The notes under the pieces are model-generated. The model was given only the letters and a program-made list of their open reading frames with translations, did no database searches and had not been told where the DNA came from. This document shows, in pieces, positions 7,242 through 22,193 of a DNA stretch of 22,284 nt. Location: IMG/VR virus record IMGVR_UViG_3300027714_000138, positions 1-22,284 of that record; one strand, 5' to 3'. This DNA is from a virus. Position 1 is the stretch's first letter; each line of letters begins with the position of its first letter. The position numbers and the translations under genes were made by a program.

Positions 7242-8558
7242 TTAAACATTTCTGCCATTTTCATAAACATGTTTTACCGTAGGGAATCTTAAACTTATTC
7301 CACCTTCTTGATTCTTTGTTTCCTCAAAGTATTGAACGGTAATTGTTTTGCCTAATAAGTGTTCTGGATTTGCTTGGTATCGTATTCTTTGTTCTTGATT
7401 CCATCCTGAGCCAACTGCTACTCTGTAACCTTTATGTTCAATCCATACATTAGCTAACATTGGTATTACTATTTCTTTGCCTTCTCTGATGACTCTATGG
7501 CTATCAAATTCAATGTCTAACACTTCATATTCTGCGTCAAAGAACTTTTTACACTTCAATAAGTTTTTAGTTCTTTTGCCTTCGTATGGACTATTTTTTC
7601 TTAACATAACTCCTTCATGCCCTAATAGATCAGCATCTGTTATCATACTTAGTAATTGTCGTTCGTCTTCTATTAAATGATGATCTAATACACTCAATGT
7701 TTTTGTGTCTCCAAGTACTCCATCTTCTTCTGGTAATCTTTGTAGCCTTTCTGATAAATTGATATGTCCTTCTTTTGAATCAAATTCTTCAATTGACATA
7801 CAATCAAATATAATATACTTTGGATTCTCTATAGTATGATCTTTTCTTTTAATTTGTTTCATGATGCCTTGAAAGTCTTCATTACCATTGTCATCCATCA
7901 TACAAACTTCGCCATCTAATACAAAATCACTAGACATATTTGTTATATCAAAACTTATTTCATTTCCAATATATTTAACATCATCTAATATTTTTTGTAA
8001 GGTTGTAAACTCATTTCCTTGTCTGGAATAGGCAGTTACTGTTTTGCCTTCTTTTCGGATAATACATCTCACTCCATCTAATTTTCTAGATGCATACCAT
8101 TTTTCTGTTTCAAAATCACAAAACTTAGGTTCATACTTAGTTGCTAATGCAACATCAAATGTTGGAATTAAATTTGGTATAACTTTATTGATAACTGAAT
8201 CAGATGCTCTAATCTCTAAGTTTCTATCAATAATAGAAAAGATTAAATCTTCATATTGTTTATTTTCTAGAACAAATCTATTTACGTTTGCGATTGCATC
8301 ATGACCGGTACAAACTCGGTTTGCTAAGTCATCTAATAAAGTGAAAATGCTACCATATGTATTTGAGTGTCCTAGTAAATCTTTATTCTTTTTACAAGTC
8401 TTACTGGTTACATAATACTTTTTATAAGGATCATATGTATAATTTAATGACGATGTAATGAACTCATTGTTCTTTATTGAATCTATAATAACTTTTTTTT
8501 CATTGAGTGATGAAGTGGATTTCATTTCATCTACAAACTTTTGTAATTTTTCTAACAT
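7242..8558 (-). CDS. ATP-dependent DNA ligase, 438 aa
   Basis: Seals nicks in DNA with ATP through a lysine-AMP intermediate. Motif I is RKLDGVR with the nucleophile at Lys159; motif III is FVLDGEV (D215, E217); motif IV HEGVMLR (E315); motif V LLKCKKF (K335, K337). An N-terminal domain of about 140 residues precedes the catalytic core, and a C-terminal OB-like domain follows from about 340. Length and layout resemble T4 gp30 (487 aa), slightly shorter. The ligase is the last gene of the unit started at 9733-9761, 2 nt after the SWIM zinc-finger gene. It would act in phage replication, joining Okazaki fragments and repair nicks. Confidence 0.95.
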   Translation of the reverse strand: MLEKLQKFVDEMKSTSSLNEKKVIIDSIKNNEFITSSLNYTYDPYKKYYVTSKTCKKNKDLLGHSNTYGSIFTLLDDLANRVCTGHDAIANVNRFVLENKQYEDLIFSIIDRNLEIRASDSVINKVIPNLIPTFDVALATKYEPKFCDFETEKWYASRKLDGVRCIIRKEGKTVTAYSRQGNEFTTLQKILDDVKYIGNEISFDITNMSSDFVLDGEVCMMDDNGNEDFQGIMKQIKRKDHTIENPKYIIFDCMSIEEFDSKEGHINLSERLQRLPEEDGVLGDTKTLSVLDHHLIEDERQLLSMITDADLLGHEGVMLRKNSPYEGKRTKNLLKCKKFFDAEYEVLDIEFDSHRVIREGKEIVIPMLANVWIEHKGYRVAVGSGWNQEQRIRYQANPEHLLGKTITVQYFEETKNQEGGISLRFPTVKHVYENGRNV

Positions 8559-18156: not shown

Positions 18157-18834
18157 TTAATTTGGTAAATTTGGTAATCGTTTTCCTACGGATTTCCAGC
18201 ATATTACTTCAAAGAAAGCATCAACATATTTTGCTCTGTCGTTTTTATACTTAAGATAATATGAATGTTCCCATAAATCTATTCCCATAAGTATCTGACC
18301 TGGCTCATTTATTACATCCATATATGGATTATCTTGATTAGCTGTATTAACTATACGTAATTGTCCTTTGTCATATAACAGCCAGGTCCAACCAGATCCA
18401 AAATTACTTGTTGCTTTATCTTTAAATTCAGATTTGAAGTTGTCTAATGATTTATATTGATCTTTTATTAAATTGTCAATCTCACTACCTTCTTCTATTT
18501 TACCTTTATCATCTGGATTAAGTTGATTAAACCAAATACTATGATTATAAAATCCACCGCCATTATTTCTAATGGTATCACTATATTGAGTTACTCCAGA
18601 TAAGATAACCTTTGCTGCTAACATCTGTCCTTCTTTATATTCTACAGGTATATTCTCTTCTTTGATAGCTTTATTCAATTTATCAATATATCCTTTGTAA
18701 TGCTTATCATAATGCAGTTCCATTGTCTCTGCATCAAATGCTGGCTCATAATCTTTAAATTTCCAATCCAACTTTACTGGAACAAATTCTTTTTGAGTTG
18801 TTTCTTCTGTTAATATATTTTTAAGTTTAATCAT
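18157..18834 (-). CDS. Fe/Mn superoxide dismutase with capsid-targeting N-terminus, 225 aa
   Basis: Converts superoxide to oxygen and hydrogen peroxide. The metal ligands are visible: H41 (TMELHYDKHY), H98 (YNHSIWF), D186 and H190 (GIDLWEHSYY). GGGFYNHSIW and SGWTWLLYDKG are core family blocks, and the rest has normal SOD length. Residues 1-10, MIKLKNILTE, are extra: they match the lysozyme N-terminus at 22161-22193 and have the form of T4 capsid-targeting peptides (MKTYQEFIAE), ending in a (L/I)-x-E site where the prohead protease cuts. I infer that SOD is packed into the head, trimmed after Glu10 and delivered with the DNA. Fe versus Mn cannot be decided. It is the last gene of its unit. 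Confidence 0.95.
   Translation of the reverse strand: MIKLKNILTEETTQKEFVPVKLDWKFKDYEPAFDAETMELHYDKHYKGYIDKLNKAIKEENIPVEYKEGQMLAAKVILSGVTQYSDTIRNNGGGFYNHSIWFNQLNPDDKGKIEEGSEIDNLIKDQYKSLDNFKSEFKDKATSNFGSGWTWLLYDKGQLRIVNTANQDNPYMDVINEPGQILMGIDLWEHSYYLKYKNDRAKYVDAFFEVICWKSVGKRLPNLPN
18802..18834 (-). repeat. 33-bp repeat encoding capsid-targeting peptide (copy 1)
   Basis: The first 33 bp of the SOD gene match the first 33 bp of the lysozyme gene (22161-22193) at 31 of 33 positions; both differences are synonymous third-base changes, so both encode the same 11 residues. Beyond that the genes are unrelated. This points to a movable leader module put in front of different cargo genes. Confidence 0.9.
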
Positions 18835-19010: not shown

Positions 19011-19475
19011 TTACCACTTTTTACAAGACCAATATCCTGCAGTGGTTCTATCTTTTTTTTGATCGCATTTATGTCTAGCTCTGAAACTTTTTCTAGCTTT
19101 AGGATTTGATTTTCTTATTCTCATAGTTTTTTGTCCTGCTTTCTTTGCAGAGGTTCCACCATGACCAAAATTAACCTTAATTACATTACCTTTTTTGTTT
19201 TTAACATATACTTTAAATTTTTTAACATCGCCTCTAGTAGGTTTGCCTAACTTAACTTTTCTGCCTTTATATTCTGCTTCATTTATTCCAGATTCACTTA
19301 ATGTAATATATTCATTCAACGAATCATGTTTCTTAATGTATTCAGCTAAACATTGAGGACAATAATCTTCAGTTACTTCTACGTGTATACATTTGTCTTT
19401 ACCATCTTCAGTGCCACCATATCGGTATCCTTTCCAACATTCCTTGCCGTCAATACCTTTTATTTTTTCGTCCAT
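19011..19475 (-). CDS. Cys-containing basic protein with prohead-protease-like sites, 154 aa
   Basis: I use the ATG at 19475 (MDEKIKGIDGKECWKGYRYG), which limits overlap with the metalloprotease-like gene to 16 bp. The N-terminal part has C13, C29 and C39-x-x-C42 (possible metal site). Next comes a linker with three candidate T4 gp21-type cuts: LNE (53-55), LSE-S (59-62) and INE-A (64-67). The last 88 residues are strongly basic (KGRKVKLGKPTRGDVKKFKV) and end in KSFRARHKCDQ and GYWSCKKW, a tail I associate with prohead and scaffold-region proteins of T4-like phages. I infer an internal head protein whose basic part could bind packaged DNA after cleavage. No family name is certain. Confidence 0.75.
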   Translation of the reverse strand: MDEKIKGIDGKECWKGYRYGGTEDGKDKCIHVEVTEDYCPQCLAEYIKKHDSLNEYITLSESGINEAEYKGRKVKLGKPTRGDVKKFKVYVKNKKGNVIKVNFGHGGTSAKKAGQKTMRIRKSNPKARKSFRARHKCDQKKDRTTAGYWSCKKW

Positions 19476-20083
19476 AAATTTAGTTCTTTTGCTTTGAGTA
19501 TCCACTTGGATTTAATCAATTCTATATCACTTTCTAATAAATATGTTTCATCTAGATATTCATACATTTTTCTAGAAAATGATTTGCGTTCTTTTTTTGC
19601 TTGAGTATGTAATCCATGGAGCATTGCTGGAATCTCTTTATCTAACAAATGATATTCGCTTGTAGTGGCAGTTTCTCGTAATAATTGATCATCTGGTAAA
19701 TATTTACCTGGTAGGGTGTTTAATCCGCTTTGAGTAATATGTTCGATTTCATGTCTTAATGTATTAGCTAAACGTAACGAAATATAATTTAAATGTTGGA
19801 TGTTTCCATTAGTTCCTATAGAAATTTCTATATAAGGTATTTGATTACTAAGTGGTTCTGTAGGATTATAAGCGTCCCCGGTGACATAAAGATTATTTGT
19901 ATATTTTGTTTGTAATCCTAAATAAAAATGTAATGGAATGTCTTTATTAATAATCTCTTTAAATGATATTACTTCGTAGCTTAAACGTTTATGTTTAGAT
20001 ACTTTAATATCAGCTAGAAGTAATCGAGATAATTGTGTTACTAAATTTCTATATTTGCCTGATATTTCTATAGTTTCATGCAT
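19460..20083 (-). CDS. HExxH metalloprotease-like protein, 207 aa
   Basis: The motif TLRHEIEHITQ gives H111-E112-x-x-H115, a zincin zinc site. Downstream, TSEYHLLDKEIPAMLHGLHT (142-161) supplies Glu143 or Glu150 as a candidate third ligand and resembles the helix after the zinc site in small phage metallopeptidases. The first 100 residues are strand-rich. It has no signal peptide, so it probably acts in the cell or in the head. It is followed by the basic protein at 19011-19475, which carries several protease-like sites. However, that type of site belongs to the T4 gp21 serine protease, not to zincins. The peptide substrate is unknown. Confidence 0.8.
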   Translation of the reverse strand: MHETIEISGKYRNLVTQLSRLLLADIKVSKHKRLSYEVISFKEIINKDIPLHFYLGLQTKYTNNLYVTGDAYNPTEPLSNQIPYIEISIGTNGNIQHLNYISLRLANTLRHEIEHITQSGLNTLPGKYLPDDQLLRETATTSEYHLLDKEIPAMLHGLHTQAKKERKSFSRKMYEYLDETYLLESDIELIKSKWILKAKELNLWTKK

Positions 20084-21033: not shown

Positions 21034-21206
21034 TTTTTGTATTTTTCTTGTATTAAAACTAATCGTCTCCAAGCATTTTCTGCTCGATAAACATATTTTT
21101 TAAATTTATTAATATCTTTTTTTTGTTTTTGTTCTTCTGCATATCGTAAATTCCTATGATATGCAGCATGATGTAATCCCATGCGTATGTTATCTAAAAG
21201 TTTCAT
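21030..21206 (-). CDS. Small basic hypothetical protein, 58 aa
   Basis: The product starts MKLLDNIRMGLHHAAYHRNL, is Lys- and Arg-rich and helical (EEQKQKKDINKFKKYVYRAE) and ends LIQEKYKK. No family is recognised. Overlaps of 4 bp (ATGA) on both sides, with the ClpS-like gene upstream and the 131-aa gene downstream, support it. Confidence 0.75.
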   Translation of the reverse strand: MKLLDNIRMGLHHAAYHRNLRYAEEQKQKKDINKFKKYVYRAENAWRRLVLIQEKYKK

Positions 21207-21445
21207 TTTTCTATTTTTGCTAATATTCCGTTATTTTCTAATTCTTTTAATATAGTAGTACAGTGATCCTTTGTGTTTGTATATACTTGACATTTTTTAT
21301 TATGATGTATTATATTAGTACATTGAGTGGCCTGATATAGATTATGTCCACAAATTTCTTGCAAACAGGTTTGTACATGTTGAAATGAATTAGTAGAATC
21401 ATTCATAACTATTATTTTATATTTTTTCGATTTTCTTTTTGGCAT
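21203..21445 (-). CDS. clpS: ClpS-like N-degron adaptor, 80 aa
   Basis: Cellular ClpS hands proteins with N-terminal Leu, Phe, Tyr or Trp to the ClpAP protease. Here YKIIVMNDSTNSFQHVQTCL aligns with the ClpS core [20 protein letters not shown], then ATQCTNIIHHNKKCQVYT with ATQLMLAVHYQGK...CGVFT, and the last strand ILAKIEK with LLCTLEK. The pocket residues Asn (N15), Asp (D16) and His (H47) are kept. The third pocket position is Ser instead of Asp, and the gate Met is Phe (F21). The N-terminal extension that drives ClpA binding is very short (about 8 residues). It might redirect host proteolysis or inhibit it. It overlaps the upstream gene by 29 bp and the next by 4 bp. Confidence 0.85.
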   Translation of the reverse strand: MPKRKSKKYKIIVMNDSTNSFQHVQTCLQEICGHNLYQATQCTNIIHHNKKCQVYTNTKDHCTTILKELENNGILAKIEK

Positions 21446-21659: not shown

Positions 21660-22193
21660 TTATAGGTTTCTTAAAAAGCGAGTGCTTTCTTGTTTTCTTC
21701 TTGTAATTAATCCAGAATATCCAGATTTAAGATTATATGTTAAAATATCTTTTGCAGCCTGTTTATATTTTTTTTGTTTAACTGATTGTATAAATTCTGA
21801 TTCAAGCATTGCACCGCAACCTGTATTAAATACTAATGATACTAAAACATCAAACATATTTTGAGTTATTGGAATATCCAATCCTTGCTCTTTATCCCAC
21901 CTCACAAATAATCTACGAACACAATCTGCAGCCTCAGTTAAATCTTTATACATGAATTGTAATGCTTTTTGTTTTGTGATAGTCATATTAGGTGTTACTC
22001 CTGCGGTATGACCATATCCTATTGTCCATGGATCTTTTTTGTTTTTATATGATGTCAATACAGGCTCTCCTTTTCTTTTTGGATCGCCTTCTTCGTATTT
22101 AATAAAGTCAAATAACCATTGACTTCCACGTAAATTGTTGCCAACTTTAAAATTATTCAATTCTTCGGTTAATATATTTTTAAGTTTTATCAT
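21660..22193 (-). CDS. GH24 (T4-type) lysozyme with capsid-targeting N-terminus, 177 aa
   Basis: Cleaves the glycan chains of peptidoglycan. The catalytic Glu is in KYEEGD (E34/E35). PWTIGYGHT (55-63) supplies the Thr (T57) and the family's GYGH, and the C-terminal block GLITRRKQESTRFL (about 160-173) is typical of phage lysozymes. The usual Asp in YKD is Asn51 here (YKN); D54 is three residues later. Residues 1-10, MIKLKNILTE, equal those of SOD and look like a T4 capsid-targeting peptide with an (L)-T-E cut site. A head-packed or ejected lysozyme is therefore more likely than a holin-released endolysin. No signal peptide is present. Confidence 0.92.
   Translation of the reverse strand: MIKLKNILTEELNNFKVGNNLRGSQWLFDFIKYEEGDPKRKGEPVLTSYKNKKDPWTIGYGHTAGVTPNMTITKQKALQFMYKDLTEAADCVRRLFVRWDKEQGLDIPITQNMFDVLVSLVFNTGCGAMLESEFIQSVKQKKYKQAAKDILTYNLKSGYSGLITRRKQESTRFLRNL
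22161..22193 (-). repeat. 33-bp repeat encoding capsid-targeting peptide (copy 2)
   Basis: Second copy of the leader found at 18802-18834 (31 of 33 identical, both changes synonymous). It encodes residues 1-11 of the lysozyme. Confidence 0.9.

Follow-up and report, generated by a model that had tools for sequence, protein, structure and literature searches.

The stretch of DNA analysed here, called the window throughout, is an entire viral contig of 22,284 bases with a G+C content of 30%. The phage it comes from is T4-like and aquatic. The following features of the window, all on the minus strand, enter the analysis:

18157..18834, minus strand: Fe/Mn superoxide dismutase (SOD) with a leader, identified by Pfam and an AF2 model
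18805..18834, minus strand: SOD leader MIKLKNILTE; the prohead protease is predicted to cut behind Glu10, whose codon is 18805-18807
19011..19475, minus strand: basic protein (phrog_7595), with the site INE↓AEYKGRKVKLGKP
19460..20083, minus strand: HExxH metallopeptidase-like protein, upstream of the SOD, with no leader in the window copy
21660..22193, minus strand: lysozyme (PF00959, PHROG endolysin), with the same leader as the SOD
22164..22193, minus strand: lysozyme leader MIKLKNILTE, the same ten residues as the SOD leader

The SOD ORF is complete and encodes 225 amino acids. Both Pfam domains were matched, Sod_Fe_N (PF00081) at 1.5e-18 and Sod_Fe_C (PF02777) at 2.6e-34, and an alignment of 23 SODs, from phages and bacteria, shows the metal ligands H41, H98, D186, and H190 in every sequence, which bears out the complete Fe/Mn SOD described in an earlier note on this DNA. 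The enzyme is predicted to be Mn-type, having Gly94 and Gln167 (NQD) as expected for such an enzyme. Among solved structures, its best matches come from bacterial SODs of the Mn or Mn/Fe kind (5n56, E 3.4e-49), and these align to it only from ~residue 20 onward. The AF2 model has a pLDDT of 90, with residues 1-12 below 50. In the model, the leader is disordered and lies clear of the SOD fold, so the loss of ten residues would be expected to leave the fold intact.

As the earlier note had stated, the SOD and the lysozyme start with the same ten residues. Of the 30 bases encoding the leader, 2 differ between the two genes, each change being synonymous, and their upstream regions are unrelated, which rules out a promoter or gene start having been copied from one to the other. 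The exact back-translated leader matched 27 viral stretches in IMG/VR, while a scrambled leader used as a control matched 0. Including the window's two, 29 proteins from 12 unrelated families have the exact leader, a recurrence far above chance. Counts of leader-like N-termini, observed versus expected, were 2 versus 0.13 in the window, 8 versus 0.53 in contig G005, 11 versus 1.37 in G006, and 5 versus 0 in G004. In the relatives, the leader form is also strongly commoner at N-termini than inside the same proteins.

The leader consensus is K-L-K-x-[IL]-[LIV]-x-E; position 4 is Leu in 39 of 43 leaders, a set that includes a few SOD leaders and in which the Glu and the two hydrophobics before x-E are imposed by the search pattern. 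SOD orthologs that are 93, 65, 56, and 44% identical begin MIKLKNILTE, MIKLANLLKE, MIRLRDIITE, and MKLMSILTE, respectively; down to 44% identity, L4 and E10 (as alignment columns) are unchanged, while the other letters drift. Between the window and L011 there are 0/30 differences in the leader versus 53/660 overall, which is not significant by itself. The tree is compatible with joint as well as separate acquisition of leader SODs and polyprotein SODs: the clade of leader-bearing SODs is firm (100/95), but the CELL group requires 1-2 changes. A signal peptide was ruled out as a reading of the leader, the hydrophobic core being missing. Some bacterial SODs do appear to have a signal peptide.

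The capsid-targeting sequence (CTS) of T4 is ten residues long, with targeting at positions 4 and 7 and processing at positions 8 and 10, and gp21 cleaves with the specificity L/I-x-E (PMC9026906). The T4 CTS delivers fused foreign proteins, and T4 internal proteins leave the head with the DNA at ejection (PMC9026906); the composition of the T4 core and the removal of the gp23 N-terminus have also been described (PMC9958956). In MIKLKNILTE, L4, I7, L8, and E10 fall on the T4 targeting and processing positions, and this spacing agrees with the T4-like tag and (L/I)-x-E cut invoked in the earlier note. Like a CTS, the leader is an N-terminal stretch of ~10 residues ending in L/I-x-E, and it is shared by unrelated proteins of one genome, the SOD and the lysozyme.

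Neither an S77 protease nor a capsid gene was found within the 22-kb window, which covers only part of a genome and carries no head genes, so the protease has to be inferred from relatives. The closest view is given by G005, a 173-kb contig collinear with the window, in which 38 of 53 predicted ORFs match at up to 97% identity in a single inverted run that is largely unbroken. One further gene of the window, at 1900-2643, encodes a sigma-70-type factor (regions 1.2, 2, and 4) that is 83% identical in G005. In this contig, the S77 (gp21) protease maps to 49.3 kb, with the coordinates 49239-49865, and gp23 maps to 52.2 kb, in a T4-like head gene order of terminase, portal, protease, core, scaffold, and capsid protein, where gene names besides the protease and gp23 were read from position and sequence. 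Across the leader or SOD contigs, an S77 protease scored above the cut-off in 12 of 38. The SOD-bearing G003, G013, G015, and G016 have both the protease and gp23; the gp21-like protease that the earlier note wanted searched for is therefore missing from the window but present in its collinear relative and in contigs that carry an SOD. In G008, G017, and G028, gp23 was present and the protease was not found; gp23 lies at the contig end there, and these contigs stop short of the upstream genes.

The same motif recurs among the head proteins themselves. Capsid proteins of the relatives have a QLV(T/K)E↓A site within ~12 residues of the mature T4 gp23 start, scaffold-like proteins end in KEILSE↓GNE-type sites, and a small protein between the protease and capsid gene of G013 starts MANLKSLINE. 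The form K-x-[IL]-[ILV]-x-E is common to leaders, major capsid protein (MCP) sites, and scaffold sites. In a cultured relative, Flavobacterium phage immuto, the capsid DNA is 75.6% identical over a third of the query, and the capsid and scaffold sites are the same as in the window's relatives; no SOD and no clear leader cargo were seen in immuto. This likeness of the capsid suggests Flavobacteria as the host of the window's phage.

To look beyond close relatives, a wider SOD scan with patterns in the enzyme body, not the N-terminus, kept 80 phage loci from 553 candidates. Among 50 distinct N-termini of phage SODs, 45 carry [hydrophobic][hydrophobic]xE within the 32 residues before the fold; among 43 from bacteria, none does. 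The P4, P3, and P1 motif positions are imposed by the search pattern, and the bacterial control was run with that same pattern. The five phage exceptions are Pseudomonas phage PA5oct (SIAE↓A), Vibrio phage 2.275.O, L075 (KINE), L131, and L095; the start of the last is misassigned, and its close homolog L082 has LINE. Phage SOD extensions vary greatly in length and sequence, yet finish in the same site. They include a short leader, ~30 residues of likely coiled coil ending in LLITE, and an N-terminal HExxH domain (L082). In L082, the SOD (8001-8552) is fused behind this HExxH (HEWSH) peptidase-like domain, with SLINE directly before the SOD. SODs in 'phage' records of Staphylococcus, Listeria, Enterococcus, Escherichia, and Salmonella are probably host DNA; the records largely lack annotation or give a bacterium as the organism, and they were set aside. 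Among them, OR844989, OR845917, OR846594, and similar entries (Staphylococcus, Enterococcus, and Escherichia phage names) have bacterial-looking SODs that are probably host contamination. The SOD of MW462191 was excluded, as it is surrounded by bacterial-type genes.

In one lineage, SODs of ~510 amino acids run on into a second leader-like stretch, such as SIKFKQILSE↓GKSEKC or SKVVKSLITE↓GTSRGC, and then into a domain of ~260 residues. These polyproteins were seen at L080:7876-9405, L068:7902-9440, and ~50 further loci. Residues E152, D179, D185, Q198, and K200 of the C-terminal domain are invariant in an alignment of 13 sequences and satisfy the E...D...(E/Q)xK catalytic pattern of a PD-(D/E)XK nuclease. 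The model of this domain is confident (pLDDT 91), and its nuclease-fold matches are middling: Hjc at Z 8.5 over 99 residues, I-Ssp6803I at Z 7.2, and a best Foldseek E of 5.5e-3, with NhoI among the PD-(D/E)XK neighbours. The domain may accordingly be described as PD-(D/E)XK-like, with a middling structural match that is consistent with the motif. A protease site between two enzymes would be hard to explain except by prohead processing.

Judging from their sequences, other genes near the SOD are also candidates for the head. The lysozyme is a probable second head cargo; the related-locus search confirmed no close relatives of it, but L011 has a 70% ortholog in which the leader is kept as (V)IKLKDILTE. 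The basic protein is probably a processed cargo as well, and its relatives in L023 and L027 have the exact leader. Across the phrog_7595 family, [hydrophobic]xE stands just before the body in 68 of 70 distinct members, and 18 of 70 have a leader-like N-terminus. Processing of this protein in the prohead appears likely, and it is possibly DNA-associated. The phrog_7595 protein is very widespread (L263-L342), with the site ...NE↓AEYQGRxVxLGKP. An ortholog of the HExxH protein in L032 (4217-4972) begins MISLKNLIVE. In G005, the lysozyme slot is taken by another protein with a leader (MILLKNILNE, 148420-148956); the SOD is missing, its slot filled by small other genes. The slots of the window cluster look like a cargo region, and the pair of G005:148420-148956 and window 21660-22193 would represent cargo exchange behind a conserved leader. 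Clusters of 5-6 leader-bearing genes, with function unassigned, were observed at G005:103-6148 and G006:3088-13199 and are probable cargo islands. A gene for a ClpS adaptor or ClpS-like protein also lies near the SOD in the window (21203-21445), in G013 (142912-143175), and in PA5oct and Vibrio phage 2.275.O (L065 2094-2396; L063 982-1338).

The overall best explanation, to which we assign a probability of roughly 0.75, is that the SOD belongs to the accessory proteins inside the head of this T4-like phage and that its leader acts as the CTS does in T4. The earlier note's proposal of head targeting with a cut after Glu10 is supported by the reuse of the leader, its CTS-like spacing, the S77 and gp23 genes of the relatives, the sites before nearly all phage SODs, and the second site in the polyproteins. 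On these sequences, packaging in the head and trimming after Glu10 are likely. Variants of this arrangement recur in many related phages, and the SOD therefore probably enters the host along with the viral DNA; injection, which draws on the T4 analogy, is held with less confidence than packaging. That the enzyme then acts against superoxide in the new host is plausible, at about even odds. Unprocessed SOD would be drawn into the prohead core during assembly, and the gp21-type S77 protease would cut it after Glu10, as the conservation of the site suggests. The released, fully folded Mn-type SOD would remain in the capsid with the DNA and, as in T4, enter the host at infection. Once there, it could clear superoxide during the first minutes, ahead of phage gene expression, and so might shield DNA or host machinery as the earlier note proposed; alternatively, it may protect the packaged genome.

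Several points count against this explanation: the window has no protease or capsid gene of its own, some motif positions were set by the search pattern, the lysozyme that carries the leader resembles an endolysin, an enzyme with a cytoplasmic task, G005 has no SOD, and immuto showed neither an SOD nor clear leader cargo. It is also conceivable, though unlikely, that the SOD is packaged and trimmed but acts in the prohead or virion, protecting packaged DNA against sunlight- or metal-derived oxidants, or aids core assembly. All of the packaging evidence would fit equally, and aquatic virions meet photo-oxidants. The ejection of T4 internal proteins with the DNA (PMC9026906) argues against this, as does the nuclease-like domain joined to the SOD in the polyproteins, which suits delivery better than genome storage.

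A further account, which we regard as improbable, treats the SOD as an ordinary auxiliary metabolic gene whose product is made and does its work inside the infected cell; the leader would then be a neutral 5' sequence spread by recombination. Host-like enzymes are many in phages, the leader is indeed a short exchangeable module, and G005 lacks the SOD. This account is hard to reconcile with the retention of L4 and E10 in SOD orthologs as distant as 44% identity, with the synonymous differences and unrelated upstream DNA of the window's two leader copies, or with phage SODs of quite different extensions converging on one site that is missing from bacterial SODs. Least probable of all is that the leader is a tag of some other kind, for instance one that anchors the protein to membranes as an amphipathic segment or one that enhances translation at the start. 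A short amphipathic helix is conceivable for MIKLKNIL, and the leader is A+T-rich at the start codon, but the near-fixed terminal Glu, the internal copy between SOD and nuclease, and the recurrence of the motif at the MCP and scaffold sites would all be left unexplained.

If the SOD is indeed an injected head protein, superoxide must genuinely hinder phages as infection begins, to a degree that makes an enzyme against it worth its space in the head. As a sequence rule, K-x-[IL]-[ILV]-x-E in a leader or at a junction, in phages with an S77 protease, would also point to candidate injected proteins in metagenomes, and what T4-like phages inject beyond DNA would become directly testable across uncultured phages. 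More tentatively, T4-like phages might commonly load an early-acting kit (SOD, nuclease-like domain, HExxH peptidase-like protein, and lysozyme) that is released by the prohead protease from leaders or polyproteins and injected with the genome, so that superoxide which the host makes at infection, possibly for defence, would be destroyed before phage gene expression.

Compared with bacterial Mn-type Fe/Mn SODs, the window SOD has the whole fold, the four metal ligands, G94, and Q167 in common; it differs in its N-terminal leader with a protease-type site, which was absent in the 43 bacterial N-termini examined. The earlier note knew of no phage SOD delivered in this way. The literature searched agrees in that it describes no phage SOD inside a capsid, and no virion proteomics were found for the window's phage group; two virus SODs nevertheless qualify the claim. 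The Cu/Zn SOD of chlorovirus PBCV-1 is packaged in the virion, as proposed here, and superoxide is lower in PBCV-1-infected cells; it has an unrelated fold and belongs to a eukaryotic virus, with no targeting leader or prohead cleavage mentioned (PMC7019647). The SOD of PA5oct (EST35_0261, QCG76142.1) carries an ESI-MS/MS note in its GenBank record, the same note as that phage's 'structural proteins'. FtsH and an RNase H of PA5oct are likewise marked, so carry-over is possible for its SOD. As in the window's relatives, this is a phage SOD in a genome with S77 and gp23, both also present in Vibrio phage 2.275.O. The N-terminus of the PA5oct SOD reads ...YISIAE↓AAS, and the scaffold-like and core-like proteins of the phage begin MTVKFEHILNE and MKINDIITE. 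The PA5oct SOD is only ~23% identical to that of the window, its leader is not the same, and no trimming or injection is reported for it in the material consulted.

The closest parallel is T4, in which the gp21-processed IPI-IPIII and Alt, like the proteins of the leader phages, are unrelated proteins with an N-terminal leader of ~10 residues. The T4 CTS and the window leader both have hydrophobics at positions 4, 7, and 8, Glu at position 10, and an L/I-x-E site, and both T4 and the relatives of the window's phage combine an S77 protease and gp23 head operon with variable accessory cargo. Unlike the T4 internal proteins, the window's predicted cargo is an antioxidant enzyme, and its leader letters differ; other phages add long extensions and SOD-nuclease polyproteins. 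The SOD would thus be a new cargo for an already known delivery system.
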